Shown here: positions 1 through 15,481 of the stretch, piece after piece | Layout: every line of letters starts with the position of its first letter | Numbering within the stretch: the stretch's first letter is position 1 | NCBI GenBank assembly: GCA_029210545.1 | Contig: JARGFV010000044.1 | Span: 1 to 19,240, forward strand | From: a bacterium | GTDB lineage: Bacteria; BMS3Abin14 | Reading direction: 5' to 3' | Length of the DNA stretch: 19,240 nucleotides | Notes under the pieces: generated by a model | Databases searched by the model: none | Seen by the model: only the letters and a program-made list of their open reading frames with translations | Told to the model about the DNA's origin: nothing | Made by a program: the position numbers and the translations under genes

Positions 1-2
1 GG

Positions 3-320
3 GTAGGGATCGGCTGGGAGGCGACGGAAAGGCTAGTTGACAAGGCGCCTTCAAGGGATTACCAGGGAAAGGTCGTTGAGGCCATCCTGACGGTGCCCCG
101 GACCCTGAGCGTGAGGGACCTGAAGATGAGGTACGTGGGCAGGCGCATCGCGGTGGAAGTCCACCTCGGCCTCGATCCCGAGATGAACGTGGCCGACAGC
201 CACGACGTGGCCAGGGATGTGAAACGGGTGGTCATGGAGAACGATCAGAGGGTCTTCGACGTGCTGGTGCATGTGGAGCCTGAAGAATCGTCGGGTTCCC
301 CGATCGATTCTTCAGGTTAG
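3..320 (+). CDS. Cation diffusion facilitator (CDF) family transporter, C-terminal part
   Basis: This is the 3' end of a gene that begins before the window; the frame is open from base 3 to the TAG at 318-320. The roughly 105 visible residues match the cytoplasmic C-terminal domain of CDF metal/proton antiporters. They include LVDKAPSRDY after the last membrane helix, a beta strand with MRYVGRRIAVEVHLGLDP, then DSHDVARDVK and a closing VLVHVEP. In this family the domain dimerises and senses divalent metals such as Zn, Mn, Fe or Co; the metal cannot be read from this piece. The last 13 codons (PEESSGSPIDSSG) lie beyond the conserved domain and are made by a near-perfect inverted repeat. The HEAT gene follows after 41 bases on the same strand. 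Confidence 0.85.
   Translation, partial: VGIGWEATERLVDKAPSRDYQGKVVEAILTVPRTLSVRDLKMRYVGRRIAVEVHLGLDPEMNVADSHDVARDVKRVVMENDQRVFDVLVHVEPEESSGSPIDSSG
279..316. repeat. Inverted repeat at the 3' end of the CDF gene
   Basis: The arms 279-290 (CCTGAAGAATCG) and 305-316 (CGATTCTTCAGG) are perfect reverse complements over 12 bp. Inside them TCGGG (291-295) pairs with CCCGA (299-303), giving a hairpin of about 17 bp with one bulged T and a 3-nt loop. It ends one base before the stop codon, so both arms are translated. No T-tract follows, so it is not a classical intrinsic terminator. It may act as an mRNA 3'-end barrier. Confidence 0.75.
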
Positions 321-361
321 AAAACAAAACAGTAACTCGTTCTTACGGCAACGGGGGGCAG

Positions 362-2455
362 ATGTCCGAGGAATCCTTAACCCATTTTCACTCCGGGGGC
401 GACGATCTTGTCGTCTCGCTGATCCAGGCCTTCCTGCGGACAGGCGACTATCTCCCGGACCATCCCCAGTCGCAGACGGCGAAGGAGGCCCTCTACGAGG
501 GCTTTGTCCCGTTGGCGAATGTTTCCGGAGACCTGCATTTCTACATCAGGGAAGAGGACGGAGAACCCACGGCCCATGTGGAAGGCCTCGGCGAGTCAGC
601 CGTACGGCTCAAGGAGATCATGCCCCTCGGGATGGTGGACACCTGCATCCCCGGGTTCGTCAACTTTATGGAGCAAAAGGAGCTCATCAGCCTCACCCTC
701 TCTGCGAGAATGGGGCCGGATGAGTTCTCCCGTTTCATCGACCTCATGAGCGACCCGGCCTTCGTCGAAATGGGGGAGACAGAGTCCAAAAAACGGTTTA
801 CCGACAGCATAAGGCTCCAACAGATCCGGAACATCTCCTGGATCTTCAACGAGGAACTCATCGGCACCGGCCGGGAGATCCCCTGGCGGGTGAACCTGGC
901 CCTTTCACGCCTCCACAAGGATCTCAGGGTGCTGTCGATCCACGGGAAGATGGAGCACGAAGAGCTCGCCAGGATCAAGGGCCGGATCCTCCATGATGTT
1001 ACCCGTCCCCTGAGGGAATATGACCAGACTTATGCCTTCCTAATGAATCTGGATCTTGCCGCGACCCGGATCCTTGATGAGGACGGAGCGGAGGATGAAC
1101 TGCTGTCGGTCATGGAGGAGAAGACCTTTTTCGCAGTCGTTACCCTCCTCATGGACGACGCCTCCGGTAAGGAATCTTGCTTTCGTGAGATCCTGCCGCC
1201 CGAAAAGTTCGACCGCCTCCTCGGAAAGGTCTGCGGGAGGCTGATCCGGATCGACACCCGGGAATCCAACGACCGCCTGAGGGTACTTTACGAGGCGGGC
1301 GTCCTGTCTCCGGAAAGCCTCACCCCCGAGGTGAGGGAACGGGTCACCCTCCTGCACCTGGTCAGGAGCTTCATCGATTACTCCGACGCCTACCTGACCC
1401 ATCTGGACGCCGGTGGTTCCATGGAGGAATTTTCCAGGTTCGCAGTTCCACTGGCCAGGATCGTACTCTACCTCATCGAGGGCGGGTGGTACGCTGAGGC
1501 GGTCGCCATTACGGGGAGGCTGGCGTCCCGTGCCGCCGAAAACAGTGAGCTGACACACGTCGCGCACCAGGCCCTCGGCGAGATCAGGGAGGGTCCGGCT
1601 ATCCGGGCGGCGAAGGAAGCCTTTCTCACGGTTCCGAAGGAAGACCGCGTCGAGATCGGCCGTTTCTTCGTTCTCATGGGTGTCTGGGCCATCGGCACCC
1701 TCAGGGAGATCATCATTCAGAGCGATGACATCTGGAGGAGAAAACAGGCAGCCGATATCCTCCTCGAGATGGGGCCGGACCCGGCGTCTATCCTCGTCGA
1801 TATCCTCGATGAGGCCGGGGTGTCCGGCGACACGTTGGCGATGGTCGTCAGGGTTCTGGCGGGGGTAACCTACGAGAACTTCAAGCCGATAGTCGTCCAG
1901 GCCGTTGAAAGGAAGGTCGGGGATCCGAGCAGCGATGTGCGAAGGGAAGCGGTCCGTGCCCTGGTCAGCCTGGCGCCCGTGGGCAAGGGGAAGCTTTTCA
2001 TGAGCGCCTTGAAGGATACCGACCCGGAGGTGCAAAGAGAGGCGGTCAGGGGGTTGGGGTTCGCCGCTGACCCCGGTTTGTTTGATCCACTTCGGGATAT
2101 CCTCGCCAGGGCCGGCCGGGAAGACGACGGGAAGCTGTGGAGTCTCGCCGCCGCCGCTGTGAGCGCCCTGGGGCATCTGCGTGACGGATGCCCCGGGATC
2201 AGCGACGAGATCGACAGCTGCGTCCTCTCTGTGAGCGAGAAAGCGATCCCCCGGAGAGGTTTGAAGAAGCTGAAAAGGCCGGGAGGCGGGTTCCCGTCCG
2301 AATTCCTCACGTCCCTGTCCTACACACTCGGGCGGATGGGAGGGGAAGAAGCTGAAAAACAGCTCGAGAGGATGTCACATCTCAAGGATGATGCGGTGGC
2401 GAAAAGGGCAAGGGCGGAGCTGGAGAAGCTAAGGGCCGTGAATCGTGATCGGTAA
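362..2455 (+). CDS. HEAT-repeat protein, function unknown
   Basis: A 697-residue protein with no signal peptide or membrane segment, so probably cytoplasmic. The start at 362 is preceded by a purine-rich ribosome site (ACGGGGGGCAG). The first 130 residues form a conserved-looking domain that I cannot name (DDLVVSLIQAFLRTGDYLPDHP near the start). The rest is almost all helical. From about residue 455 to 660 it shows HEAT-type helical pairs, for example DPSSDVRREAVRALVSLAP and DTDPEVQREAVRGLGFAAD. HEAT solenoids usually serve as protein-binding scaffolds. No enzymatic motif is visible. It lies 41 bases after the CDF gene and may be cotranscribed, but a shared role is not evident. The last codons and the stop lie inside a 7-bp-period repeat, so the extreme C-terminus (NRDR) may be repeat-derived. 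Confidence 0.85.
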   Translation: MSEESLTHFHSGGDDLVVSLIQAFLRTGDYLPDHPQSQTAKEALYEGFVPLANVSGDLHFYIREEDGEPTAHVEGLGESAVRLKEIMPLGMVDTCIPGFVNFMEQKELISLTLSARMGPDEFSRFIDLMSDPAFVEMGETESKKRFTDSIRLQQIRNISWIFNEELIGTGREIPWRVNLALSRLHKDLRVLSIHGKMEHEELARIKGRILHDVTRPLREYDQTYAFLMNLDLAATRILDEDGAEDELLSVMEEKTFFAVVTLLMDDASGKESCFREILPPEKFDRLLGKVCGRLIRIDTRESNDRLRVLYEAGVLSPESLTPEVRERVTLLHLVRSFIDYSDAYLTHLDAGGSMEEFSRFAVPLARIVLYLIEGGWYAEAVAITGRLASRAAENSELTHVAHQALGEIREGPAIRAAKEAFLTVPKEDRVEIGRFFVLMGVWAIGTLREIIIQSDDIWRRKQAADILLEMGPDPASILVDILDEAGVSGDTLAMVVRVLAGVTYENFKPIVVQAVERKVGDPSSDVRREAVRALVSLAPVGKGKLFMSALKDTDPEVQREAVRGLGFAADPGLFDPLRDILARAGREDDGKLWSLAAAAVSALGHLRDGCPGISDEIDSCVLSVSEKAIPRRGLKKLKRPGGGFPSEFLTSLSYTLGRMGGEEAEKQLERMSHLKDDAVAKRARAELEKLRAVNRDR

Positions 2456-2472
2456 TTAGTGATTAGTGCTTA
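2438..2472 (+). repeat. Heptamer array spanning the HEAT gene stop codon
   Basis: Five consecutive 7-mers: GTGAATC, GTGATCG, GTAATTA, GTGATTA, GTGCTTA. The stop TAA (2453-2455) falls inside the third unit. It is one of about a dozen 7-bp-period arrays in this window, each with its own word. Confidence 0.7.
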
Positions 2473-2547
2473 GGGAACCCCCCCGGCTTTGCCTGGGGTA
2501 CATGACTCTTCCTCTCCCCTCAGGAAAAACTTTCCCCCTCACCCCGG

Positions 2548-2571
2548 CCCTCTCCCTCGGCGGGGAGAGGG
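2548..2571. repeat. CCCTCTCCC/GGGAGAGGG hairpin (REP-like)
   Basis: CCCTCTCCC (2548-2556) and GGGAGAGGG (2563-2571) form a perfect 9-bp stem with a 6-nt loop, preceded by CCCCTCACCCCGG. Inverted repeats of this composition recur between genes in many bacterial genomes. Between two convergent genes it could also help to end transcription, but there is no T-tract. Confidence 0.55.
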
Positions 2572-2873
2572 AGAATAAGGAAAGGGCCTATTGGCAGGGG
2601 GAGGAAGGGTAAGGAAGTAAGCCTACATGAGGGGAAGAAGAATGGGGAGGGGACTTATTGCCAGGCGATTTCCGGGATGACGAATAAAGTAAACCGCCAT
2701 ACCGACACTTCGACACCCCTTCCCCCCTGCTCCCCCGCTCCTCTGCCCGCCCTCTCGCTCCGCAGCTCAGTCGTCCAGCCGTAAGTTTCCGCGTCCAGTT
2801 TTTTCCGCCCTCCGCACCAGGCGAGTTGGTCGAGTCGCACTTCGCACTGACTTTTCCTAGCACTTGTCCTTCC

Positions 2874-2901
2874 CCTTTGGCCTTTGGACTTTGCACTTTG
2901 G
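2874..2901 (-). repeat. Heptamer array just after the GNAT stop
   Basis: On the minus strand the units read CCAAAGT, GCAAAGT, CCAAAGG, CCAAAGG. The array starts 8 bases beyond the stop of the GNAT gene. Confidence 0.65.
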
Positions 2902-2909
2902 ACTGTTTT

Positions 2910-3821
2910 TTACTCCACCCTGATCTTCTCCAGATCCACCATGGGCTGCAGCTGGTACAGGTCCGGGCGCCGGTCGTGGAGGGGACGGACGGTGGCGATG
3001 TGCCGCTGCTGGGCCAGGGCCGAGAGGGCCAATTCCGAGACCACCACCGACTCCACGTTGGGGTCGGCCTCTCCCTGGATCCCCTTTTCCGGAAAAGGAA
3101 AGTCGCTTGGGGTGATGTGCAGCTTGTCCTGTGTGTAGACGTACCCGCCGCTGGCGGCGTGGCAGCTGATGAGCTGGTAGGTAAAGTACTCCGGAAAGAG
3201 GAGGAAATGGCAGTGGGAGGCGGAAGCCGTGTCGACGAAGAACTCAACCGCGTCTTCCATCTGGACCTTTTTCACCTTGTAGCCGGCCTTGAGGTGGGAG
3301 TTGAGGGCCTGGTCCTCCAGTTCCCCTTCCACGACCTTCCTGACGTACTGGCCGGCGGTCATCCTGCCGGCGTAACGCCTGTAACCGGGGATACGGCCGT
3401 AGGCGATCATCCGCCTCAGGTTGTATCTCTTCATGAGCTTCCTGCGGCGCTCGTAGAGCATTCCGGAAATGCCCAGGCGCTGGTAATCGGGATGGACGGC
3501 AAGGTCCGCCCCGTAAAGGGTGTCCCCGAGATAGTTGTGGGTGCTGAAGGTCCCGGCGCCGGTGATCTCGTCCACGGTGTACCAGTAGGTCTCGTCATCG
3601 AGGCTGATGATGAGGGAGGTGGCAAATCCCACGATCTTGTTGTCAGCGATGGCCAGGAACTGCCCCTGCGGGAAAACGGCCAGCTGCATATCGTAGAGCC
3701 GCTCGCCGTATTCGAACTCCGGAGGGTAGTCCGCGTAGGCGGCCTTGTTGCACTCGATGACTCCGGGTATGTCTTCCTCACGCCAGCGTCGGATCGTTAT
3801 CTTCGGACGTCTTTTGGCCAT
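2910..3821 (-). CDS. GNAT acetyltransferase with a shortened nitrilase domain (YhcX-like remnant)
   Basis: A 303-residue protein. Residues 8 to about 185 match the N-terminal GNAT domain of the bifunctional GNAT/carbon-nitrogen hydrolase family (B. subtilis YhcX type), with GDTLYGADLAVHPDYQRLG (acetyl-CoA loop region) and RRMIAYGRIPGYRRYAGRM. The remainder consists of separated pieces of the nitrilase domain joined in frame. VEFFVDTAS followed by LLFPEYFTYQL carries the catalytic Glu region, YTQDKLHITP carries the Lys region, and DPNVESVVV to VRPLHDRRPDLYQL is the domain's C-terminal end. The catalytic-Cys segment (CYDxEFPE-type) and long stretches between the pieces are absent. Family members are about 500 residues. 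The nitrilase half should be inactive, while the GNAT half may still work. The gene lies 52 bases after the PLP decarboxylase on the same strand, with a weak GAGG ribosome site, and is probably the operon's last gene. Confidence 0.8.
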   Translation of the reverse strand: MAKRRPKITIRRWREEDIPGVIECNKAAYADYPPEFEYGERLYDMQLAVFPQGQFLAIADNKIVGFATSLIISLDDETYWYTVDEITGAGTFSTHNYLGDTLYGADLAVHPDYQRLGISGMLYERRRKLMKRYNLRRMIAYGRIPGYRRYAGRMTAGQYVRKVVEGELEDQALNSHLKAGYKVKKVQMEDAVEFFVDTASASHCHFLLFPEYFTYQLISCHAASGGYVYTQDKLHITPSDFPFPEKGIQGEADPNVESVVVSELALSALAQQRHIATVRPLHDRRPDLYQLQPMVDLEKIRVE

Positions 3822-3873
3822 GGTAATAAAACCTCGAGTTTAAGTTCGCAAACCGTTAACGGTGATCCGTGGC

Positions 3874-5193
3874 CTATGATCCAGGCCTGATCGCCTCAGA
3901 GAACCAGGTGATGGAATCAGCCCGGGATTGCCTGAGCCGCACCATTTCCGCCGTCGGTTTGATGAACTGCTGGCGAAGACTCCAGGTGTAGGCGCCCTGG
4001 TTGGGAAGGAGGAGCAGGTCGCCGGGCTCGATCCCGTCTCCGAAATAGGACCAGCCCCACACGTCATGCGGAGTGCACAAAGACCCGGCGATGAGGCAGG
4101 GCCGCTCCACGGCGGAGGGCCGGCTGAGGTTGATGACAGGCACGTAGTCGGATTCGTATCGCTCCCACCCGACGATGTTGGTCCCTGCGTCCGCGATGAC
4201 AATGTCCCGGGACTTGACGTCCACAACGCGAAGGAGTATGTGCATGGCGCTGTTGGCGATCCACCGGCCGGGTTCGGCATAAACGGTCAGGGGGCAAACG
4301 GGGAAGATGTTTTCCCGGAGGGAACGGGCGATCTCCCGCGCGAAGTCATCGATGGGAGCTGCCGGAACGATCCGGCGTCCGGGCAGGAAGCCCGGTGAAA
4401 GAGACTCCGTATCCAGCAGCCATTCCCCCTCCTCCGGCCAGTAACCGCCCCCGATATCGATAAACTCCAGGTCACGTGTCAGTCCCCGGTCAAGGTTTCT
4501 CAGGACGAGGCCCAGCCTGGCGATGAACCCGGTGTGGGCGTCAGGGGTGAGGTTCCAGCTTGTGTGGAACTGAACGCCCCGCAGCAGCACACGCGGGCTT
4601 TGGGCTGCCTTCTTCATGAAGGTCTCGAGTTCGGCCAGGCCCACCCCGAACTTTCTCCAGAGCCCCTCCTCCTGCGTGGTGATCCGCACCCCGGTTCGGA
4701 CAGGCGCCCCGGAAAAAGAGACGATCCCTGCCAGCCGGTCCAGCTCCCCGGGACTGTCCAGGAGGATGGTGACGGCGTCCCGGTTCTCAAGGGCGAGACC
4801 CAGTTCGTCGTCTGTCTTGCCCGGTCCCGAGAACAGGATCCTCCGGCAGCCTGCCGCGAGGGCGTTTTCCAGCTCCAGGCCGCTGGAAACGTCCAGGCCC
4901 AGCCCGGCTGCGACCACCCCGGCGGCCATCCAGGGGTGGTTGTTGCACTTCATGGCAAAGAAAGCCTCGAAACCCGGAAGACGTTCCTCGAACGCTCCGA
5001 CAAATGCCCGGCAACTGGCGCTGAGGGACGCGGGGTCGAAAAGGTAAAGAGGGGTGTTCCGAAGGTCCGCCGCCGCTTTCAGCTCCTCCGCTCGTGCAAG
5101 GAACGAAAGGACGAGGTCGCGGACCTCCTTTTCGCAGTGGGGGCCCTGACTGGCGTCACACCCGTGGCCGTCCATTCCCCCGGCCTGTTTCAT
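3874..5193 (-). CDS. Fold-type III PLP-dependent decarboxylase (DAP/ornithine/carboxynorspermidine decarboxylase superfamily)
   Basis: A 439-residue enzyme of the alanine-racemase-fold decarboxylases (LysA/NspC/Orn_DAP_Arg_deC group). Visible motifs are K82 in AMKCNNHP (Schiff-base lysine), H210 in FHTSW, the glycine loop IDIGGGY (245-251) and YAEPGRW (305-311) for phosphate binding. SLCTPHDV supplies the cross-subunit Cys373, and GAYTWSLRQQF closes the site. The Cys is followed by TPHD rather than the ESGD/DSxD common in LysA or ODC, so the substrate is probably not the standard one. The start at 5193 overlaps the ATP-grasp stop (ATGA) and has GGAG 8 bases upstream. It likely produces or modifies an amine used by the neighbouring ligase; this is inferred from context only. 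Confidence 0.85.
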   Translation of the reverse strand: MKQAGGMDGHGCDASQGPHCEKEVRDLVLSFLARAEELKAAADLRNTPLYLFDPASLSASCRAFVGAFEERLPGFEAFFAMKCNNHPWMAAGVVAAGLGLDVSSGLELENALAAGCRRILFSGPGKTDDELGLALENRDAVTILLDSPGELDRLAGIVSFSGAPVRTGVRITTQEEGLWRKFGVGLAELETFMKKAAQSPRVLLRGVQFHTSWNLTPDAHTGFIARLGLVLRNLDRGLTRDLEFIDIGGGYWPEEGEWLLDTESLSPGFLPGRRIVPAAPIDDFAREIARSLRENIFPVCPLTVYAEPGRWIANSAMHILLRVVDVKSRDIVIADAGTNIVGWERYESDYVPVINLSRPSAVERPCLIAGSLCTPHDVWGWSYFGDGIEPGDLLLLPNQGAYTWSLRQQFIKPTAEMVRLRQSRADSITWFSEAIRPGS

Positions 5194-6473
5194 GATGCCA
5201 TCTCCACGCGAAGGAGTTTTTCCAGGCGGTCACCCTCCTCCGCAAGGTCATCAGGGTTGGAGGGGCTGAAAATGATGTGGCCAAGCACTCTCGAAAAGTA
5301 GTCGCCGGGCGGGAGGGCGACCTTGTGTCCCGGCTCACGGTATAAGGTGATATCCACGACCCCGGGATCCCCGGCAATACGTGAAACATCGATTCTCTCG
5401 ATCACCCCGGTCTGGCGGGCGAAAATCCTCACTGCCGCGAGAAACCGGAACGATTCCACAGGAGGGAGCACTGGACTCGACCCTTCCGCAAGGTCCAGGG
5501 CGAGACAGAGCATGTCCAGCCCACCGCTGGCCCGGATCAGCCAGGGAAGACAGTCCCCTGAAGGGCGCGGGGAAAGCTCGAGGAAGCTGGCGCGCCCGCG
5601 GTGGACGATAAAGTCGGCCATGAAGAGACCACTGGTGAGCTCCATGGCGTCGGCCGCTTCAAAGAGCTGCTTCTCCAGGTCCCTCTGGCTGATCCCTGTG
5701 TCTCCGTTCGCCGGTACGTAATACAGGTGGGTCGTTCCCGTACCCAGTTCCGGGGCAAGGATCTTGCCGGCTACACGGACGATCTTCACCCGACCGTTCT
5801 CGAGGATGAAATCGCAGCTGAACTCGGGACCGGTCAGCCCTTCCTCGGCGACCACATCCTGACGGGGATCGATGCCCTGGCCCTGGTAGTGCCCCAGGTG
5901 GTACATCCTTTCGTCAGGGTGCTCGGCCAGCCTGCGGGTAATGATCCTGAAGGCCTTCCGGGCCTCTCCACGGTTCTTACACCAGAAGACGAGTTCGCTC
6001 CCGGACCCTGTCAGCGGTTTGAGTACCAGGGGGAAGCCCAGGCGGTCGATGACCGCCTCGAGGTCCTCCGGTTCCCTTGCGGTGAGGACCCGGGGACAAG
6101 GGACACCTGAACGCAGCCATGCCCTTTTGGAGTGGAATTTGCTCCTGCTGGTCTTTATGGACGCCTCGGAATGATAGGGGAGAGCCAGTTTGGCGGCCAG
6201 GGACGCGGCAAGCGCCAGGGACTCGTCGTCAAAGCAGGTGATCCCGGAAAGTTCCATACCGTGGGTCGTGAGATGCCTTCTCAGCGAAGACAGGGCCTCC
6301 TTGCTGTTGCTGAGGTCTGCGGTGACCTCCACTTCCTCCGGGGGGCGCTCGACTCCGGCGTTCCGGCGGACCCTGGCGTCGGTCAGGAACAGGGCCCGTC
6401 CGGGATAGCGGCCCTCGATCAATTCGATGTAATCAGGAGTCGTCCCGACGACCAGCACTCTCCCCCGAGTCAC
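5190..6473 (-). CDS. ATP-grasp carboxylate-amine/thiol ligase-type enzyme
   Basis: A 427-residue ATP-grasp protein. It has an N-terminal Rossmann-like part (GRVLVVGTTPDYIEL), then K112 in SRSKFHSKRAWLRSG, and FPLVLKPLTGSGSE (about 147-160) for the ATP-binding lysine and glycine loop. EEGLTGPEFSCDFIL (about 210-224) follows, and the metal ligands D287 and E299 lie in FMADFIVHRGRASFLELSPR. The family activates a carboxylate as acyl-phosphate and joins it to an amine or similar nucleophile. The order of motifs fits CarB-like, amino-acid-ligase members. It starts with GTG at 6473, overlaps the acyltransferase stop (GTGA), and has GGAG 7 bases upstream. The substrate is unknown; the flanking decarboxylases suggest that a decarboxylated amino acid could be one partner. 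Confidence 0.85.
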   Translation of the reverse strand: MTRGRVLVVGTTPDYIELIEGRYPGRALFLTDARVRRNAGVERPPEEVEVTADLSNSKEALSSLRRHLTTHGMELSGITCFDDESLALAASLAAKLALPYHSEASIKTSRSKFHSKRAWLRSGVPCPRVLTAREPEDLEAVIDRLGFPLVLKPLTGSGSELVFWCKNRGEARKAFRIITRRLAEHPDERMYHLGHYQGQGIDPRQDVVAEEGLTGPEFSCDFILENGRVKIVRVAGKILAPELGTGTTHLYYVPANGDTGISQRDLEKQLFEAADAMELTSGLFMADFIVHRGRASFLELSPRPSGDCLPWLIRASGGLDMLCLALDLAEGSSPVLPPVESFRFLAAVRIFARQTGVIERIDVSRIAGDPGVVDITLYREPGHKVALPPGDYFSRVLGHIIFSPSNPDDLAEEGDRLEKLLRVEMAS

Positions 6474-7405
6474 GACGATACTCCGTGGGATACCTGCCCT
6501 GCCGCTTCAGAAAGGAGGTACAGGGGCCGTTCCGTGAGATGGAACATCTTCTTCCAGTTGAACTCTCCGCAAAGGAAATCGACCTGGCGTATCTGTTCGG
6601 CGCAGGCTCTCTCCATGTGGTGGAGGTTGATGAGCTTGGCGATACCGGAGCATTCAGGGTCGGTACCCCCGGCCATGAGGGTGTAAACCTCCTTATGGAG
6701 CACACCCACATCGACCGCGGCCGGATAGCCGCCCACCATGGCGGTGGTGACCCTCAGCCACCCGGCTTCGGCGAAGAACCGGACCATGTCGGTAAACCCC
6801 CTGCGGAACCTGGGATCCGCGAAATAGGAACTGGTCCCGAATCGGGCCAGGTTCATGGACACCATGAGGTCAAAATCCTCGAAACGGTCCAGGCGCCAGG
6901 TTACACCCCTGGTCTGGAGGGTCTCGACTTCCTTCCGGATCCGTTTGAAAGACTTGCCGGAGAAGGCGGCACGATATCCGGCCATGTCGTAACCGTACCT
7001 GGGCGGTTCGAAAAGATATCCGGTCTCGTCGACCCGGCTTTCGGCGGGCAGGTTGGCCGAACGGGGCGAGAGGTATCGGATGTGAATGGGTCCGGGAACC
7101 GAGGCAAGGAGGCTTTTAGGATCACTGGAAACGATGACATTCTGCTCCAGCCAGGTGCGGCCCCGCCAGGTCTCTCCCGGGAAGAAGGCCCAGTTCCCCT
7201 GCTCCTCGATCCAGGACAAGGGAAGGAGACCTGCGGGTTTCCCCCCGGACTCCTCGACGAGAAAAAGGAAGGGACGGCGGAAATGACGGTGGAACGCCAT
7301 GCGTACTTCCCAGAGGTCCATGACGAACTCGTCGGGCATGAGATCGACCCACAGTTCCCGGGCTTCGCCGAGGTCGCGGACAAATCTGACGTCCACGGCG
7401 GTCAC
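6470..7405 (-). CDS. FemAB/CelD-like acyltransferase (Acetyltransf_6 type GNAT)
   Basis: A 311-residue protein of the double-GNAT BioF2/CelD/FemAB-like superfamily. Typical marks are KSFKRIRKEVETLQ (about 151-164), the strand LRVTTAMVGGYPAAVDVGVL (217-236), YTLMAGGTDPECSGIAKLIN (241-260) and the late VDFLCGEFNWKKMF (275-288). The last matches the family's ending with DFLxGxxxYK-type residues. Members move acyl or aminoacyl groups to amines. Its GTG start at 7405 overlaps the stop of the SpeD-like gene (GTGA). No good ribosome site precedes it, so it probably depends on translational coupling. No membrane segments are seen, so the reaction is probably cytoplasmic. Confidence 0.8.
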   Translation of the reverse strand: MTAVDVRFVRDLGEARELWVDLMPDEFVMDLWEVRMAFHRHFRRPFLFLVEESGGKPAGLLPLSWIEEQGNWAFFPGETWRGRTWLEQNVIVSSDPKSLLASVPGPIHIRYLSPRSANLPAESRVDETGYLFEPPRYGYDMAGYRAAFSGKSFKRIRKEVETLQTRGVTWRLDRFEDFDLMVSMNLARFGTSSYFADPRFRRGFTDMVRFFAEAGWLRVTTAMVGGYPAAVDVGVLHKEVYTLMAGGTDPECSGIAKLINLHHMERACAEQIRQVDFLCGEFNWKKMFHLTERPLYLLSEAAGQVSHGVSS

Positions 7406-7806
7406 CGCCGGAACGTGACGTTCGATTCCACCCGGGACCCTCCAAAGAAACTGCGGGCAAACTCGGCCACAATTTCCGGATCGTAGGGCTTGCAGCTGAA
7501 AACGTCGAGGTAGGTGGTATTGGTGAGGTTGGCGAAGTGTGCCGAGATCAGTGAAGTCTCGATGAGCTGGACCATGGAATAGCCGGCCACCTTTTCGTCC
7601 TCCCCGAAGTGGATCACCTGCGTCTCACCGAAACGCTTCATTTCGATGAGGTCACACAGTTCGACGACGAAAAGCCGAATAGCCTCAGCGTCCCGGATAG
7701 TGTCGGGGTCGCACTCGTAGATGTCTATGGCGGTGGCGATGCCCCACACCTGCTCGGCCGCTGCCTGCTCGGGTACGGTCATTGGTATTGGCTGTGTTCC
7801 CAACAT
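7402..7806 (-). CDS. SpeD-like (AdoMet decarboxylase family) pyruvoyl enzyme, probably not an AdoMet decarboxylase
   Basis: A 134-residue protein aligning with prokaryotic class 1b SpeD: IDIYECDPDTIRDAEAIR near the N-terminus, then GYSMVQLIETS and YLDVFSCKPYDPE. Spacing is exact: Ser85 (of ETS) is followed by His90 at +5 and Cys105 at +20, as Ser63/His68/Cys83 of the Thermotoga enzyme, so self-cleavage to a pyruvoyl group is plausible. The Glu before the serine is Thr here, and the HTWPE segment, whose Trp/Glu contact AdoMet, is replaced by AHFANL. SpeD homologues that decarboxylate ornithine or arginine are known, and this fits that type better. I chose the start at 7806 rather than the ATG at 7821 because GGAGG lies 8 bases before it and nothing precedes 7821. 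First gene of the coupled set; no speE is visible. Confidence 0.7.
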   Translation of the reverse strand: MLGTQPIPMTVPEQAAAEQVWGIATAIDIYECDPDTIRDAEAIRLFVVELCDLIEMKRFGETQVIHFGEDEKVAGYSMVQLIETSLISAHFANLTNTTYLDVFSCKPYDPEIVAEFARSFFGGSRVESNVTFRR

Positions 7807-7871
7807 TTCACTTTCCTCCATAAAATATGGGATTGTCCTGCAGCCTTGCCGCTTAAAGGGCGTTGGGGCTG

Positions 7872-7884
7872 ATCAACGGTTGAT
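7872..7884. promoter_or_regulatory. Palindrome upstream of the SpeD-like gene, candidate operator
   Basis: ATCAAC-G-GTTGAT is a perfect 6+1+6 palindrome in the 103-117-base gap between tetR and the SpeD-like gene. It could bind a regulator of the operon, but it differs from the two tetR-promoter operators (TTGAC-N6-GTCAA), so the link to this TetR is unproven. Confidence 0.3.
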
Positions 7885-7924
7885 TACCTCGTTAAAAGTC
7901 TCTTCGGGCCATTTTGCGAGGCCA

Positions 7925-8587
7925 TCAATGGCTGTCCTCTTCCTGGCGGAGGGCTCCGTTGATGAATCGCGCGAGGCTGCTCACAAGGACCCCCTTCAGT
8001 GATTGGATATTTTCGTCCACGTTATCGTCCTCCGAGGCGATGACGGCGAAGGAGTAGTAGCCGGAAAGAAACCCCGCTACCGCGCAGCCGATGCGGCGAA
8101 GAAGCGGTTTGCCCAGGCGCTGCCGGACCACCGAGTCCACCAGGCCTTCGATGGACTCGAGGTACTCAAGGAAGGGCAGTTCGAGTCCTGAATAGCCCTC
8201 CTTGAGCTTCAGGTCGGCACGACCCTGATAGTAGAGGACGAAATCCTCCCACCTGGAGCTGAAAAAATCGATGTGGGCCTGGATAATGAACTCGAGCAAA
8301 GTCGTCAGGTCCGTGGCTGCAAGGCACCGTTCCTCCATGGTCTTGACAAGACCATGGAGGACCTCCCGGATCTGATCGGATATGACCTCGTTCTTGTCCT
8401 CGAAATAGTAGTAGAAGGTTCCTTTTGCCAGATCGGCCCGCTGAGTGATGTCTTCGATGGTCGTCAGGTCGATGCCCTTTTCTGCGAACAGTTCCCTGGC
8501 AGCCTTGAGGAGGCGGCGCCTTGTCGCACGGGTTTTCCTGGCCTGCCGGGACAGCTTTGCTTCGATCGTTGGTTTGATCTGGTTCAT
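7925..8587 (-). CDS. TetR/AcrR family transcriptional regulator
   Basis: A 220-residue repressor. The N-terminal helix-turn-helix is clear: TRATRRRLLKAARELFAEKG, then TTIEDITQRADLAKGTFYYY and FEDKNEVISDQI (about residues 16-70). The C-terminal ligand domain is helical and not assignable to a ligand. A longer frame extends upstream to 8860, but I chose the ATG at 8587. It has AGGGGA 7 bases before it and a promoter that places the transcript start near 8605. The gene lies upstream of and in the same direction as the biosynthetic set (gap 103-117 bases), so it is a likely local regulator and may be cotranscribed with it. The stop codon sits in a small palindrome (GCCAT-CA-ATGGC, 7921-7932). Confidence 0.9.
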   Translation of the reverse strand: MNQIKPTIEAKLSRQARKTRATRRRLLKAARELFAEKGIDLTTIEDITQRADLAKGTFYYYFEDKNEVISDQIREVLHGLVKTMEERCLAATDLTTLLEFIIQAHIDFFSSRWEDFVLYYQGRADLKLKEGYSGLELPFLEYLESIEGLVDSVVRQRLGKPLLRRIGCAVAGFLSGYYSFAVIASEDDNVDENIQSLKGVLVSSLARFINGALRQEEDSH

Positions 8588-8606
8588 GTCCGAATCCCCT
8601 ATATTG

Positions 8607-8640
8607 CTGACCGTATAGTCAAATTTGACCGCATAGTCAA
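8607..8640. promoter_or_regulatory. Two tandem TetR-type operators
   Basis: Two copies of the palindrome TGAC-N6-GTCA, at 8608-8621 (spacer CGTATA) and 8626-8639 (spacer CGCATA). The second extends to TTGAC/GTCAA. Their centres are 18 bp apart. They cover the -10 and -35 elements of the tetR promoter, which is the classic arrangement for autorepression. Confidence 0.65.
8612..8640 (-). promoter_or_regulatory. Sigma-70-type promoter of tetR
   Basis: On the minus strand TTGACT (-35, 8635-8640) and TATACG (-10, 8612-8617) are separated by exactly 17 bases. The expected start is near 8605, about 18 bases before the ATG. Both elements are embedded in the two operators. Confidence 0.65.
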
Positions 8641-8714
8641 TAATTATTTTCAGGGTATAAAATATTTTTTTCGAAGAAAAAAGAGCAACAAAATCAATGG
8701 GTAAGCCGAATGCC

Positions 8715-8735
8715 GAGTGACGAGTGACAAGTGAC
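8715..8735 (+). repeat. Heptamer array (RAGTGAC)
   Basis: GAGTGAC, GAGTGAC, AAGTGAC in tandem, between the AT-rich tetR upstream region and the possible small gene at 8783. Confidence 0.65.
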
Positions 8736-8782
8736 AGTTTACAGTCGATCACTGATCGGGAAGGCCGGGGAAGGGAAATGCG

Positions 8783-8920
8783 ATGGAAACTTCCGGTATC
8801 AGGCTGGTCAGGGCCATCCCGAGCCGGCTGGACGCCCGGACTGAATGGTCGGTGGGGCATGGCGTGTCGTTCGTCATGGTGTTCAGGGAGTACCGGGAGG
8901 CCGGAGCGGAGATTTATTGA
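8783..8920 (+). CDS. Possible small protein, 45 residues, unknown
   Basis: The frame starts METSGIRLVRAIPSRLDA and ends REYREAGAEIY followed by TGA. Support is circumstantial. AAGGG lies 7 bases before the ATG, a heptamer array begins immediately after the stop as it does for established genes here, and a strong plus-strand terminator follows at 8942. No other plus-strand gene explains that terminator. I recognise no family; no signal or membrane segment is seen. It could also be a decayed gene fragment. Confidence 0.3.
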   Translation: METSGIRLVRAIPSRLDARTEWSVGHGVSFVMVFREYREAGAEIY

Positions 8921-8941
8921 AGCTAACAGCTAATACTTAAA
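8921..8941 (+). repeat. Heptamer array (AGCTAAC) after the small ORF
   Basis: AGCTAAC, AGCTAAT, ACTTAAA follow directly on the TGA at 8918-8920 and run up to the terminator stem. Confidence 0.5.
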
Positions 8942-8970
8942 CAGGGGCCGGCCGGCCCCTGAAGTTTTTT
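8942..8970 (+). terminator. Intrinsic terminator, plus-strand orientation
   Basis: A perfect 20-base palindrome CAGGGGCCGG/CCGGCCCCTG (8942-8961) is followed by AAG and six T (8965-8970). On the minus strand the following bases are only TTTAAG, so it works best for plus-strand transcripts, although it could also slow purU transcription. Confidence 0.7.
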
Positions 8971-8983
8971 ATGAGATATGAGA
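8970..8983 (+). repeat. Two heptamer copies (TATGAGA) at the purU 3' end
   Basis: TATGAGA TATGAGA lies 5 bases beyond the purU stop on the downstream side. This is a short array, and on its own it would be weak evidence. Confidence 0.4.
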
Positions 8984-8988
8984 TCAGC

Positions 8989-9873
8989 TCAGCCCCCGAA
9001 GACGACCGTTTTACCATTATGTATCAGCACCCTGTTTTCCACGTGCATGGCCACGGCCCGGGCGAGGACCACCTTCTCGATATCCTCGCCCTTGCGTTTG
9101 AGGGTCTTCACGTTGTCCCTGTGGGTGACCGGAACGATGTCCTGGTAGATGATGGGGCCCTGGTCGAGATCCTCGGTGACGTAGTGGCTGGTGGCGCCGA
9201 TGATCTTGACCCCGCGTTTGAACGCCTGAAGGTAGGGGTCGGCACCGATGAAGGCGGGGAGGAAAGAGTGGTGGATGTTGATGATGCTGTTGCGGTAGGC
9301 GGTGACGAACCTGGGGGTCAGGATCTGCATGTAGCGGGCCAGGATGACCGTATCCACGTTCTCTTCCTTGAGGATCTCCAGGGCCTGGTCCTCCTGACCA
9401 CGTTTGTTCTCCTTGTCCACCGGCAGGTGGTGATAAGGGATGTTGTAATAGCCGGCCATGTCCCGCAGTTCGTCGTGGTTGCTGATGATGCAGGGGATGT
9501 CCACTTCGATGTGCCTGCTTCGCCAGCGGTACAGAAGGTCAAGAAGGCAGTGTCCCTGTTTTGAGACCATGATGGCGATCCGTTTTTTTCGATCCGAAAA
9601 GAAAAGGCGGTGAGCCATCCCGAGCCGCCAGCACACCTTGGAGAACTCGTCGTCTATCTCTTCCCTGGGGATCTCGAATCCTTCCATGTCCCAGCGGATC
9701 CTCATGAAGAACATGTCCTCCACCGGATCGGTGTGCTGGTCCAGGTAGACGATGTTGCCGCTGTGGTCGAAGATCCAGTTGGTGATGGTAGCGATGATCC
9801 CCTTGGTATCCTTGCCCTGGATCAGTGCCGTTACGGTTGTGGGTGCTTTGCCGTTGTTCGCGCGATCGCTCAT
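8989..9873 (-). CDS. purU: Formyltetrahydrofolate deformylase
   Basis: A 294-residue PurU. It hydrolyses 10-formyl-tetrahydrofolate to formate and tetrahydrofolate, which balances one-carbon pools and supplies formate for purine synthesis. Residues 12-90 form the ACT domain (TVTALIQGKDTKGIIATITN). Residues about 97-290 form the formyltransferase-fold catalytic domain, with N199 and H201 in IINIHHSFLPAF and D237 in VTEDLDQGPII, the N/H/D catalytic set of this fold. Length fits the family (about 280-295). The ATG at 9873 is chosen over one 13 codons upstream because GGGAGGAG lies 8 bases before it and nothing precedes the upstream ATG. It is probably a single-gene unit with its own promoter. 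Confidence 0.95.
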   Translation of the reverse strand: MSDRANNGKAPTTVTALIQGKDTKGIIATITNWIFDHSGNIVYLDQHTDPVEDMFFMRIRWDMEGFEIPREEIDDEFSKVCWRLGMAHRLFFSDRKKRIAIMVSKQGHCLLDLLYRWRSRHIEVDIPCIISNHDELRDMAGYYNIPYHHLPVDKENKRGQEDQALEILKEENVDTVILARYMQILTPRFVTAYRNSIINIHHSFLPAFIGADPYLQAFKRGVKIIGATSHYVTEDLDQGPIIYQDIVPVTHRDNVKTLKRKGEDIEKVVLARAVAMHVENRVLIHNGKTVVFGG

Positions 9874-9943
9874 GTGGGTGACTCCTCCCGGCTGCCGGCC
9901 GGTTCTTTTCATGACAGAAGTGCAGCGCCTTCAGTCAGGCTCC

Positions 9944-9960
9944 TGTCAGAAGTTCTGACA
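9944..9960. promoter_or_regulatory. Palindrome at the purU transcript start, candidate operator
   Basis: TGTCAGAA-G-TTCTGACA is a perfect 8+1+8 palindrome starting about where transcription from the predicted purU promoter would begin. A partial copy (GACAGAAG) lies near 9913. The binding protein is unknown; a 5' mRNA hairpin is the alternative. Confidence 0.45.
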
Positions 9961-9966
9961 TTTCGC

Positions 9967-9994
9967 AGTTTAAAGGAGATTCACCAAAGGTCAA
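9967..9994 (-). promoter_or_regulatory. Candidate purU promoter
   Basis: On the minus strand TTGACC (9989-9994) is followed after 16 bases by TAAACT (9967-9972), placing the start near 9960, about 87 bases before the purU ATG. Confidence 0.45.
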
Positions 9995-9999
9995 GAACC

Positions 10000-10033
10000 C
10001 TGAATCCGGAGGGGACATCCCACCCGGATTCAG
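10000..10033. repeat. Inverted repeat CTGAATCCGG/CCGGATTCAG
   Basis: Perfect 10-bp arms at 10000-10009 and 10024-10033 with a 14-base loop. It directly abuts a second, longer inverted repeat. No T-tract follows on either side. Confidence 0.6.
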
Positions 10034-10073
10034 CCCCAAAATCGCGATTGATCTGATTTTCGCGATTTTGGGG
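10034..10073. repeat. 14-bp inverted repeat CCCCAAAATCGCGA/TCGCGATTTTGGGG
   Basis: Perfect arms at 10034-10047 and 10060-10073 with a 12-base loop, followed by an A-run. It begins with CC, as IS1380-family ends often do, and lies about 90 bases before the transposase relic. It could therefore be a rearranged insertion-sequence end; a regulatory hairpin is the alternative. Confidence 0.55.
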
Positions 10074-10163
10074 ATAAAAAAACCTTGTTGGTATCGGGCT
10101 TCCCGATCTGGTGGACGGTTGTCTTCCTTCCCCTGGAAGCGGAGCCGGTTATCGTCCATCCCA

Positions 10164-10418
10164 ATTCGTGATGCCGCTTTTGTTGACATTGTTTTTGCCG
10201 TCGGCGCGGACCTTGATTCGGCTGTTGTGGGGGCTATCCGGGCCATTGCCGTGGACGAGCGGCGTCCCTGTCAGGATGGTCATGTCGCCGAGACGGCGCA
10301 CAGCATGGAACACGCGAAGAAGGCGTTGCGCCTGATCGCTGCGCGTCGCCCGGTTCAGGGGGATCTGTTCGAGGAGGAGAACCCGAGGTTCCGTTACAAG
10401 GTGATCGCCTCAAACCAA
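10164..10418 (+). pseudogene. IS1380-type transposase fragment
   Basis: About 85 codons in one frame resemble an internal part of IS1380-family DDE transposases: FAVGADLDSAVVGAIRAI, QDGHVAETAHSMEHAKKALR, and LIAARRPVQGDLFEEENPRF followed by RYKVIASN. The start with the first catalytic acidic residues and the C-terminal third are missing, and the frame runs into unrelated repeat DNA after 10418. A full transposase is above 400 residues, so this is a dead relic. The assignment rests on remembered family patterns. Confidence 0.6.
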
Positions 10419-10432
10419 TCTCGGATTTCGGG

Positions 10433-10460
10433 TCACCTTTCACTGTTCACTGTTCCCTGT
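10433..10460 (+). repeat. Heptamer array (TCACTGT)
   Basis: TCACCTT, TCACTGT, TCACTGT, TCCCTGT in tandem, just after the transposase relic and about 75 bases before gatC. Confidence 0.65.
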
Positions 10461-10467
10461 TTATATG
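10439..10467 (+). promoter_or_regulatory. Candidate gatC operon promoter
   Basis: TTCACT (10439-10444), 17 bases, TATATG (10462-10467). Each box matches 4 of 6 consensus bases. The -35 box lies inside the heptamer array, so changes in repeat number would alter the promoter. Weak call. Confidence 0.3.
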
Positions 10468-10534
10468 CTAACAATTCCTTTTTTGTTTCCCGTATCTACG
10501 GCCGGGCTGGAAGCTGTCCCGACAGGAGGAACCT

Positions 10535-10825
10535 TTGAAAATCACACCGGAACTCGTCGACCACGTCGCCCGTCTCGCCAGGCTGGATATGGAGCCTGAA
10601 GAAGCCGCGAAGATGCAGAGCCAGCTGGGTGATATCCTGGGTTACATCGGTCTTCTGGACGAGCTGGACCTGTCCGGTGTACCTCCCACATCCCACGTTA
10701 TCGATATGGCCAACGTTATGCGGGCCGACGAGGTGCAACCGTCCCTCCCTGTTGAGAAGGGACTGGCAAACGCCCCGGAAAGGGAAGGGACAGCGTTCAG
10801 GGTTCCCCGAATTATCGAAGGATAA
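10535..10825 (+). CDS. gatC: Asp-tRNA(Asn)/Glu-tRNA(Gln) amidotransferase subunit C
   Basis: A 96-residue GatC, of normal family length. It is the small subunit that wraps around GatA and stabilises the GatCAB complex, which converts Glu-tRNA(Gln) and Asp-tRNA(Asn) to the amidated forms. Marks are ITPELVDHVARLARLDMEPEE at the N-terminus, LGDILGYIGLLDELD, PTSHV, and the C-terminal MRADEV and FRVPRII. It starts with TTG at 10535, fixed by AGGAGG (10524-10529) five bases before it and by the conserved K-I-T next to the start. The last codons and the stop lie in a perfect 16-bp inverted repeat. thiC follows after 117 bases. Confidence 0.95.
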   Translation: MKITPELVDHVARLARLDMEPEEAAKMQSQLGDILGYIGLLDELDLSGVPPTSHVIDMANVMRADEVQPSLPVEKGLANAPEREGTAFRVPRIIEG

Positions 10826-10836
10826 TTCGGGGAACC
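10801..10836. repeat. Perfect 16-bp inverted repeat over the gatC stop codon
   Basis: GGTTCCCCGAATTATC (10801-10816) and its exact reverse complement (10821-10836) flank a GAAG loop. The left arm encodes the conserved C-terminal VPRII of GatC, and the right arm contains the TAA stop (10823-10825) and continues beyond it. No T-tract follows. The right arm looks like an inverted copy of the coding end. Confidence 0.85.
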
Positions 10837-10866
10837 AGATATCAGATTTCAGTAGGCAGATATCAG
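10832..10866 (+). repeat. Heptamer array (ATATCAG) after gatC
   Basis: GAACCAG, ATATCAG, ATTTCAG, TAGGCAG, ATATCAG: five units sharing CAG, overlapping the end of the gatC inverted repeat. Confidence 0.6.
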
Positions 10867-10892
10867 ACAAAGTCTTTTGTACTTTACTGGCT

Positions 10893-10913
10893 ACTGACGA
10901 CTGATTACTGATT
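10893..10913 (+). repeat. Heptamer array (ACTGATT) before thiC
   Basis: ACTGACG, ACTGATT, ACTGATT in tandem, 29 bases before the thiC start. Confidence 0.6.
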
Positions 10914-10942
10914 TCTGCAAAGTTTCACGGAGAGAAACATTT

Positions 10943-12211
10943 ATGACCACCCAACGAATAGCGGCACTGGAAGGACGCATCACAGAGGTCATGCGCCACG
11001 TGGCCCGGGAAGAGAACGTCGCGCCCGGGGAGGTGAGAGACCTGCTGGCTTCCGGCAAGGTGTCCATCCCGGCCAATCCTGCCCACACCGCTCTTCAGCC
11101 CAGGGGGATCGGCGGCCCCTTCACCGTCAAGGTCAACGCCAACCTCGGTACGAGCCTGGCCTGCAACGACCCTGAGCTGGAGCTGAGGAAACTCAACACG
11201 GCCATCGCTGCCGGCGCCGATGCCGTCATGGACCTTTCCACCGGCGGTAACATGGGCGCCCTCCGCAAGGAGATCGTGCGCCGCTCAACCATCCCGGTGG
11301 GAACCGTTCCCATTTACGACGCTGCCGTCAGGACCTACGAGAGCAAGGGGGACCCTTCCCTTTTTTCCGCGGATGACCTGTTCGACGCGGTGCGCCGTCA
11401 CGCCGAGGACGGGGTGGATTTTGTCACGCTCCACTGCGGTGTGACCCGTTCGGCGGTGAAAACGGTGAGGAAATCGGGAAGGGTAACCAGGATCGTCAGC
11501 CGGGGAGGATCGCTCCTGGCGGCCTGGATGGAGCGGGAGGGGAAGGAAAACCCCCTCTACGAGCGGTACGACGACCTCCTAGCCATCCTCCGGGAACACG
11601 ATGTCACCATCAGCCTGGGTGACGGGCTCAGGCCAGGCAGCCTTGCCGACGCCACCGACGCGGCCCAGGTGGAAGAGCTCATCGTCCTTGGGGAGTTGAC
11701 CCGGCGTGCCTGGGACGCCGGAGTCCAGGTCATCGTGGAGGGGCCGGGACACGTTCCCCTTGATCAGATCCAGGCCAACGTGGTCCTCCAGAAACGGCTC
11801 TGCCACGGAGCGCCCTTTTACATCCTCGGTCCCCTTGTCACCGACGTCGGGGCCGGTTACGATCACATCACGGGAGCCATCGGCGGTGCCGTGGCCGGCA
11901 TGGCCGGCGCCGATTTCCTGTGCTACGTCACCCCGGCCGAGCACCTTTCCCTGCCGGATCCCGACGACGTGAGACGCGGGATCATGGCTTCGAGGATCGC
12001 CGCCCACGCGGTGGACATTGCCCGGGGCAACAAGGCGGCCTGGGAGAGGGACCTGGCCATGTCAAGGTGCCGCGCCTCCCTGGACTGGGAGGGGCAGATC
12101 AAATACGCCCTGGACCCGGGGGAGGTCCGCCGCCGGATGGGGGACAGGAAGGAACTGGACGAGGAGTGCAGCATGTGCGGAAAATTATGTGCCATGAAAG
12201 TCTTCAGCTAG
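10943..12211 (+). CDS. thiC: Phosphomethylpyrimidine synthase (ThiC)
   Basis: A 422-residue radical-SAM enzyme of the short ThiC type. It rearranges aminoimidazole ribotide to hydroxymethylpyrimidine phosphate for thiamine synthesis. Visible are VNANLGTS, GADAVMDLSTGGNMG, TLHCGVTRSAVK, SRGGSLLAAWM, SLGDGLRPG, VEGPGHVPLDQI, GYDHITGAIGG and ADFLCYVTPAEHLSLP. The C-terminal CSMCGKLC (C409, C412, C416) is the iron-sulfur motif in the CX2CX3C spacing of short forms. The paralogue BzaF (hydroxybenzimidazole synthase for anaerobic cobamide) shares most motifs, and I cannot fully exclude it. GGAGAG lies before the ATG at 10943. No TPP riboswitch fits in the 117-base leader. The gene sits unusually inside the gatCAB operon. 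Confidence 0.88.
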   Translation: MTTQRIAALEGRITEVMRHVAREENVAPGEVRDLLASGKVSIPANPAHTALQPRGIGGPFTVKVNANLGTSLACNDPELELRKLNTAIAAGADAVMDLSTGGNMGALRKEIVRRSTIPVGTVPIYDAAVRTYESKGDPSLFSADDLFDAVRRHAEDGVDFVTLHCGVTRSAVKTVRKSGRVTRIVSRGGSLLAAWMEREGKENPLYERYDDLLAILREHDVTISLGDGLRPGSLADATDAAQVEELIVLGELTRRAWDAGVQVIVEGPGHVPLDQIQANVVLQKRLCHGAPFYILGPLVTDVGAGYDHITGAIGGAVAGMAGADFLCYVTPAEHLSLPDPDDVRRGIMASRIAAHAVDIARGNKAAWERDLAMSRCRASLDWEGQIKYALDPGEVRRRMGDRKELDEECSMCGKLCAMKVFS

Positions 12212-12246
12212 GAGTCTGTCGGACTATCCGTTTCAGACTCCCAGCT
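12206..12246. repeat. Inverted repeat over the thiC stop codon
   Basis: AGCT-A-GGAGTCTG (12206-12218) pairs with CAGACTCC-C-AGCT (12234-12246): 12 pairs with one mismatch, plus an inner CGG/CCG. The stop TAG (12209-12211) lies in the left arm. No T-tract follows. Confidence 0.7.
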
Positions 12247-12252
12247 AGAATT

Positions 12253-12273
12253 TCAGTAATCAGTAATCAGTGA
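12253..12273 (+). repeat. Heptamer array (TCAGTAA) after thiC
   Basis: TCAGTAA, TCAGTAA, TCAGTGA in tandem, seven bases after the thiC hairpin. Confidence 0.65.
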
Positions 12274-12296
12274 GAAGCTATGTTCCAGGCTCTGAA

Positions 12297-12317
12297 CCCA
12301 AAACCCAAAACCCAAAA
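12297..12317 (+). repeat. Heptamer array (CCCAAAA) before gatA
   Basis: Three perfect copies of CCCAAAA, ending 11 bases before the gatA start and so next to its weak ribosome site (GGGACC). Confidence 0.75.
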
Positions 12318-12328
12318 CGGGACCGACC

Positions 12329-13786: not shown

Positions 13787-13830
13787 GAACTAGCGAATTA
13801 AGTATCAGGAACTAAGGTATTGCTTGAAAC

Positions 13831-13858
13831 TTAGCTCATAGCGGTTAGCACATAGCTC
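13831..13858 (+). repeat. Heptamer array (TTAGCTC/ATAGCGG) after gatA
   Basis: TTAGCTC, ATAGCGG, TTAGCAC, ATAGCTC: four 7-mers with alternating first bases. Confidence 0.6.
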
Positions 13859-13911
13859 TGAAACATGTTGAGGGGAATTGCCGGAGTGTCCACTGTAAGT
13901 ACCTGGACCTG

Positions 13912-14007
13912 GACCAGGACTACGACCAGGACCACGACCAGGTCTACGACCAGGTCTACGACCAGGACTACGACCAGGACTACGACCAGGACCACGACCA
14001 GGTCTAC
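13912..14007 (+). repeat. 12-bp tandem repeat upstream of gatB
   Basis: Eight complete units of GACCAGGWCYAC: variants GACCAGGACTAC (A), GACCAGGACCAC (B) and GACCAGGTCTAC (C) in the order A B C C A A B C, followed by a partial GAC. It ends 8 bases before the gatB ribosome site. It is in frame with gatB and open (repeating D-Q-D-Y/D-Q-V-Y) back to a TAG at 13846, but I see no plausible start in that stretch. Confidence 0.9.
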
Positions 14008-14025
14008 GACTATTTGGAGTGCTTC

Positions 14026-15459: not shown

Positions 15460-15460
15460 T

Positions 15461-15481
15461 CCGTGAACCGTGAACCGAAAA
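15461..15481 (+). repeat. Heptamer array (CCGTGAA) right after gatB
   Basis: CCGTGAA, CCGTGAA, CCGAAAA, starting one base after the gatB stop and leading into its terminator. Confidence 0.65.

Follow-up and report, generated by a model that had tools for sequence, protein, structure and literature searches.

A conserved four-gene operon that may encode a pathway to an amide-linked, polyamine-like metabolite

The operon and its conservation

The window analysed here is the whole 19,240-bp stretch (positions 1 to 19,240, forward strand, of contig JARGFV010000044.1, GenBank assembly GCA_029210545.1) from a bacterium of the GTDB lineage BMS3Abin14. Its minus strand carries an operon of four open reading frames (ORFs) at 7402-7821, 6470-7405, 5190-6473 and 3874-5193, with stop/start overlaps of 4 bp at 7402/7405 (GTGA), 6470/6473 (GTGA) and 5190/5193 (ATGA); the four genes and the positions of their overlaps agree with the original prediction, which was made from the sequence of the window. 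The four ORFs encode a SpeD-like protein (7402-7806; Pfam AdoMet_dc, 81 bits), a putative pyruvoyl L-ornithine decarboxylase (SpeDC); a Fem-like double-GNAT protein (6470-7405; Acetyltransf_6, 89 bits), a putative aminoacyl-tRNA-dependent transferase; an ATP-grasp protein (5190-6473; Pfam ATP-grasp_4, RimK and a borderline LAL_C2) resembling L-amino-acid ligases; and a fold-type III pyridoxal 5'-phosphate (PLP) decarboxylase (3874-5193; Orn_Arg_deC_N, 85 bits), apparently of the kind that acts on conjugated amino acids. The SpeD-like ORF has two candidate start codons, ATG at 7821 and ATG at 7806, with a GGAGG between them (ATGGAGGAAAGTGAAATG); because the GGAGG lies just 5' of the second ATG the gene probably starts at 7806, as had been proposed, with 7821 as the alternative. 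No tRNA gene was found within the operon.

A scan of the SpeD-like protein against one genome per species recovered 161 related stretches, the best 80 of which (62-86% identical) were kept; 72 of these loci were informative, in that the contig was long enough or the full set was present. The SpeD-like, Fem-like, ATP-grasp and PLP genes lie in the same order on one strand in 69 of the 72, a few of the 69 having a gene cut at a contig end or broken by an N or gap. The three exceptions are L033 and L063, which have the SpeD-like gene alone, and L069, which lacks a nearby ATP-grasp gene. Judging from the record titles of these best 80 of 161 stretches, the carriers are mostly anaerobic bacteria and span approximately ten phylum-level groups, among them Desulfobacterota, Deferribacteraceae, Planctomycetota, Krumholzibacteriota, Zixibacteriota/GN15, Sumerlaeota, Armatimonadetes, Nitrospirae and Omnitrophota, plus others; single placements may be wrong, as most carriers are metagenome-assembled genomes (MAGs). 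Cultured carriers among the loci are Desulfobacter, Desulfospira and Dethiosulfatarculus.

As an independent seed against seeding bias, a profile of the Fem-like family was run against 297 evenly drawn genomes from the phylum of Desulfobacter. It was present in 11 of them, all at E <=1e-102, with nothing between 1e-102 and the 1e-20 limit. Leaving aside the Desulfobacter reference, the ATP-grasp gene accompanies the Fem-like gene in all ten loci and the SpeD-like gene does so in nine, and the PLP gene is present in 9/9 loci whose contig extends far enough. The conserved unit is thus observed directly, and chance grouping is excluded by the order kept in 69/72 loci together with the recovery of the cluster from the Fem-like seed. 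The four-gene set is an ancient unit: the proposal of a coupled set, made up of two decarboxylases together with a Fem-like transferase and an ATP-grasp ligase, is borne out by their conservation together and in order, and the notion that these genes are rarely found together, which would have spoken against it, is contradicted by the same two results.

The distribution is clear-cut yet patchy, which points to transfer or repeated loss. Of 50 genomes from the phylum of Seleniivibrio, 5 have the Fem-like gene, and within the window's own family the PLP gene occurs in at least 6 of 12 genomes, one genome having two copies; in one member, G002, the operon genes are found twice, at distant sites (L004/L096 and L008/L102). 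A plasmid or phage origin was rejected, the Fem-like query having no plasmid match and the SpeD-like query matching only distant phage SpeDs.

Over 61 loci, the pairwise distances of the proteins correlate, at 0.88 for ATP-grasp/PLP, 0.84 for Fem/ATP-grasp, 0.77 for Fem/PLP and 0.58-0.63 for the SpeD-like protein with the other three, against permutation maxima of <=0.13 for all pairs; the shared ancestry of the genomes contributes to these values. In a Desulfamplus MAG the ATP-grasp and PLP enzymes are found as a single ORF (L084:7212-9983), which is either a natural fusion or an assembly effect.

Predicted functions of the four proteins

The family assignments below are direct observations, from which the activities are predicted. 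The original prediction placed the first protein in the SpeD-like pyruvoyl decarboxylase family, and this placement stands, without the S-adenosylmethionine decarboxylase (AdoMetDC) type of identity. The protein fails the AdoMetDC equivalog TIGR03330 (29.1 bits vs a cut-off of 75.65), and its ETSLISAHFAN replaces the AESHLAIHTWPE of the genome's own speD, so that the ESH motif of AdoMetDC and its proline are gone; the text of PMC10407285 describes the proline as completely conserved in AdoMetDC. A role as the AdoMetDC of spermidine synthesis was rejected on these two grounds. Across 82 SpeD-like sequences, S90, H95 and C110 (numbered from the 7821 start) are invariant and match, as aligned by motif, the pyruvoyl-forming residues S63, H68 and C83 of the Thermotoga maritima enzyme. 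Q85, T89, F96 and Y104, in the same numbering, are also invariant. SpeD homologues that decarboxylate ornithine, named SpeDC, are described in the text of Li et al. 2023 (PMC10407285) as having diagnostic Gln, Thr, Phe and Tyr residues, and the family has the same letters in the same order, as compared with that text and not with the columns of its figure. The protein therefore shares with SpeDC the pyruvoyl-forming residues, the lost AdoMetDC motif and the four letters in order, and is probably a pyruvoyl L-ornithine decarboxylase making putrescine rather than a typical AdoMet decarboxylase. The setting differs: the SpeDC genes presented in the text of that paper stand beside speD/speE, the carboxyspermidine dehydrogenase and decarboxylase genes (CASDH/CASDC) or the homospermidine synthase gene (HSS), whereas here the gene stands beside Fem-like, ATP-grasp and PLP genes, and no ATP-grasp or acetyltransferase genes were found in the searched text of PMC10407285.

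Several relatives of the SpeD-like protein have other arrangements. In Leptospira interrogans, a 66% identical SpeDC-type domain lies between speD and speE on the second replicon (L129:7497-8363), where it is fused behind an apparent SET-type domain. Two Desulfobacter loci (L134, L135) encode SpeD-SpeD fusions whose second domain lacks the SpeDC Gln and, in L134, also the cleavage Ser, in agreement with the degraded fusions reported in the text of PMC10407285. Among the phage relatives found with the SpeD-like query there was no validated SpeDC, that of HTVC201P being an arginine decarboxylase and the others of AdoMetDC type; a weak similarity to phiM12 is no evidence of ornithine decarboxylase activity, since the relative from phiN3 is a genuine AdoMetDC. 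A profile of the SpeD-like family found no credible match among PDB sequences, and the same was true of the Fem-like family profile.

The second protein had been described as a FemAB/CelD-like acyltransferase. It is Fem-like (Acetyltransf_6), as stated, and its closest structural relatives make it look aminoacyl-tRNA-dependent. Its AlphaFold2 (AF2) model (mean predicted local distance difference test score, pLDDT, 91) matches best to Sba18 (Z 18.2) and Sbb17 (Z 17.7), then to FemX (17.5) and MprF (~15), Z differences under 1 counting as ties; other tandem GNATs, including those of CoA type, reach Z <=13.7. The two GNAT domains are arranged as in FemX; the alignments with FemX and Sba18 cover 260-272 residues at Z 17.3-18.2. 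A W284-K285 pair is nearly invariant across the family and can be likened, by motif, to the essential F-K motif that contains the catalytic Lys of FemX (K305) and DhpH-C (K329) (PMC12945691). The protein thus has the double-GNAT fold of FemX and the streptothricin-type Sba18 and Sbb17 and, as judged by motif, a comparable aromatic-Lys pair, but differs in its partner genes and is only 12-14% identical to them in structural alignment. It is probably an aminoacyl-tRNA-dependent transferase, as judged from the modelled fold and the motif; a simple CoA-dependent GNAT may be disfavoured, the CoA-type tandem folds scoring lower against the model.

The third protein passes ATP-grasp_4 with 36.7 bits and falls just below the cut-off of LAL_C2 (29.0 vs 29.4). 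Its profile matches the structure 4dim, of unnamed function, and the L-amino-acid ligases 3vot (BL00235) and BacD. By family it resembles L-amino-acid ligases, having in common with BL00235 and BacD an ATP-grasp core and, at a borderline score, an LAL_C2-like C terminus, and differing from them in that narrow shortfall.

For the fourth protein, fold-type III PLP decarboxylase was the correct call, and the part that changes is the probable substrate. The nearest solved sequence to its profile is the N-citrylornithine decarboxylase 7kh2, with BtrK, diaminopimelate (DAP) decarboxylase and SbnH close behind. The active-site loop reads GSLCTPHD, compared with GPLCTPED in BtrK and GQLCTPKD in SbnH, and DAP decarboxylase has C-E at that place; G(S/A)LCTPxD was present in all 65 loci matched by motif search, with H before the D in 61. 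The enzyme and its relatives BtrK, SbnH and FigC/FslC are all PLP decarboxylases of the alanine-racemase fold. The LCTPxD loop is common to the enzyme, BtrK and SbnH, and the H or K at a citrate-contact position is common to the enzyme, FigC and SbnH: His376 of the operon's enzyme aligns with FigC H357 and SbnH K347, both of which contact citrate (PMC7857480). In that paper FigC, SbnH, AcsE, MccE and BtrK form a group of decarboxylases that stand apart from polyamine synthesis and act on conjugated substrates. The present enzyme forms a distinct conserved family, and no carrier protein or synthetase of nonribosomal peptide synthetase (NRPS)-independent siderophores (NIS synthetase) was seen in the cluster. 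It fails the LysA equivalog (127.5 bits vs a cut-off of 297.9), with a C-T-P loop and not C-E. A DAP or ornithine decarboxylase was therefore rejected, on the grounds of the loop and the LysA score and also because a different type III decarboxylase of the genome scores much higher. In its active-site sequence the enzyme resembles decarboxylases of conjugated rather than free amino acids; by the overall fold of its AF2 model (pLDDT 87), these and DAP decarboxylases cannot be told apart.

A proposed pathway and its alternatives

Taken together, these assignments lead us to propose, tentatively and at slightly under an even chance, that the operon is a dedicated NRPS-independent pathway to a small, decarboxylated, amide-linked putrescine pseudopeptide. 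All of the reactions and the product are inferred. From its signature residues and relatives, SpeDC would cleave itself at Ser90 to form the pyruvoyl cofactor and convert L-ornithine to putrescine. The Fem-like protein, by its fold and family, would move an amino acid from aminoacyl-tRNA onto an amine, and the ATP-grasp ligase, on the same kind of evidence, would form a second amide bond at the expense of ATP. As the active-site loop suggests, the PLP enzyme would strip the alpha-carboxylate from a side-chain-conjugated amino acid, in the manner of BtrK, SbnH and FigC, with a new primary amine as the result. The pathway would end in a short, polyamine-like molecule with amide linkages. The amide-linked amine foreseen in the original prediction is upheld as a probable product, with changed enzyme identities.

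Several observations weigh against this proposal. By fold comparison taken by itself, the closest relatives of the PLP enzyme are DAP decarboxylases; GNATs that make no use of tRNA would fit the Fem-like motif too; and the diagnostic SpeDC columns, shown in Figure 8 of PMC10407285, are known from its text and not the figure. The SpeDC protein correlates less with the other three than these do among themselves, it is kept without them in L033 and L063, and L069 has no ATP-grasp gene nearby. In genome G273 the other three genes occur with no SpeDC and only a canonical SpeD, which shows that another source can provide the putrescine, should it be used.

The lower correlation and the two solitary genes, together with the adjacency to speD and speE in Leptospira, also favour an alternative in which SpeDC only feeds spermidine synthesis and the other three genes, sharing its operon, make an unrelated small peptide amine. 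Several carriers (e.g., G101, G103-G105, G109 and G244) have CASDC but neither a pyruvoyl arginine decarboxylase (PvlArgDC) nor an OKR decarboxylase, and in those SpeDC may therefore be the source of putrescine. The window's own genome points the other way. The original prediction noted that no speE is visible, which is true of the window and not of the genome, where another contig (C1) has speD, PvlArgDC, speE and an agmatinase-like (speB) gene in one row. With this complete cluster the host should make spermidine from arginine without SpeDC, yet its operon keeps SpeDC, and the adjacency is kept across ~10 phyla. Given this separate route, the putrescine of the operon is probably meant for the operon, and SpeDC is probably its dedicated source, as far as gene content can indicate; the spermidine explanation is accordingly regarded as rather unlikely.

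A metallophore, that is, an NRPS-independent chelator built on putrescine, in whose synthesis the substrate of the PLP enzyme would be an N-acylated amino acid (cf. rhizoferrin and staphyloferrin B), would suit the N-citrylornithine decarboxylase among the nearest solved relatives, the loop in common with SbnH and the position of His376, as well as the citrate synthase gene that follows the PLP gene, in the same orientation, in L035, L045, L070, L071 and L076. The annotated recurrent neighbour families, which are a selection, include no siderophore exporter, TonB receptor or NIS synthetase of the IucA/IucC type, no search having been aimed at the latter family, and a metallophore is considered improbable. 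More improbable still is that the Fem-like protein modifies peptidoglycan or lipid with an amine from the other genes and that there is no free metabolite. FemX and MprF are indeed its next structural relatives after Sba18 and Sbb17, but no recurrent neighbour was recognised as a gene for wall or membrane biosynthesis, and the protein is soluble-sized and fits small-molecule synthases as well as it fits FemX.

The vibrioferrin cluster, to which the original prediction referred, has an ATP-grasp ligase and a fold-type III decarboxylase together, as does this operon. The vibrioferrin system further depends on NIS synthetases and genes for transport, none of which was seen with the operon. No described match for the four-gene cluster was found in the literature searched, which left out most subscription papers, and with the same scope no literature was found on aminobutyryl- or alanyl-putrescine; a 2025 paper on a spermine route (PMC11999265) does not mention ATP-grasp genes. 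The earlier statement that the set matches no known pathway agrees with this. Each of the enzyme families is known; the way they are combined, the conservation of that combination and the product presumed for it match no pathway known to us.

In a broader form, and with more doubt than attaches to the pathway itself, the operon may represent a new class of amide-linked, polyamine-like metabolites, for which a transferase dependent on aminoacyl-tRNA, an ATP-grasp ligase and a decarboxylase of conjugates would use putrescine as the starting material, in mostly anaerobic members of ~10 phyla under sigma-54 or TetR control. A compact pathway kept over such distances would imply a product useful to anaerobes. 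If the proposal is true, polyamine metabolism would be joined to tRNA-dependent peptide chemistry, and some genes of the SpeDC type, for which AdoMet decarboxylase is the common annotation, would act outside spermidine synthesis.

Regulation and neighbouring genes

A TetR-family regulator gene (7925-8587, minus strand; TetR_N, 56 bits) lies upstream of the operon on the same strand, in keeping with the TetR gene earlier assigned there. Its start is placed at 8587 rather than 8860, as TetR_N begins at residue 117 of the longer ORF. Two tandem near-palindromes, both exact matches to TGACCGNATAGTCA, are located at 8608-8639, 5' of tetR; allowing up to two mismatches, 0.27 matches are expected, and two were reached in 4/200 shuffles. 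These are candidate TetR operators, predicted from their sequence and position. Besides the window, 20 loci have a TetR gene at the corresponding position, and 45 loci have a sigma-54 activator gene nearby, usually divergent and upstream. The score of the best sigma-54 promoter-like site (TGGCAY...TTGCT) averages 10.1 across activator loci, where shuffled sequences give 3.6, and 6.6 across TetR loci, where they give 6.5. Such sites, observed directly, reach P <=0.02 in 80% of activator loci and in none of the TetR loci; the Mann-Whitney value of 1e-8 overstates the case because the loci are related, but the contrast is nonetheless large. Expression of the operon would thus be governed by TetR in the window and by a sigma-54 activator in most relatives.

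Downstream of the operon lies a GNAT gene (2910-3821, minus strand) with close homologues (75-82%) only in four loci, L005, L006, L008 and L011, and a weak match in L078. As far as these homologues indicate, it probably stands beside the operon only in the window's own family and is outside the core. The relatives in the four loci are longer fusions of a GNAT and a carbon-nitrogen hydrolase; in the window copy several internal blocks are missing, among them the central part of the hydrolase domain, and this copy is therefore degraded or misassembled. On the other side, a gene for PurU, formyltetrahydrofolate deformylase (8989-9912, minus strand), adjoins tetR in the window and in L009 and L010. 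Further along, a ThiC-family gene (10943-12211, plus strand) passes the ThiC cut-offs and scores nearly equally, below the cut-off, for BzaB, the paralogue associated with the lower ligand of B12.

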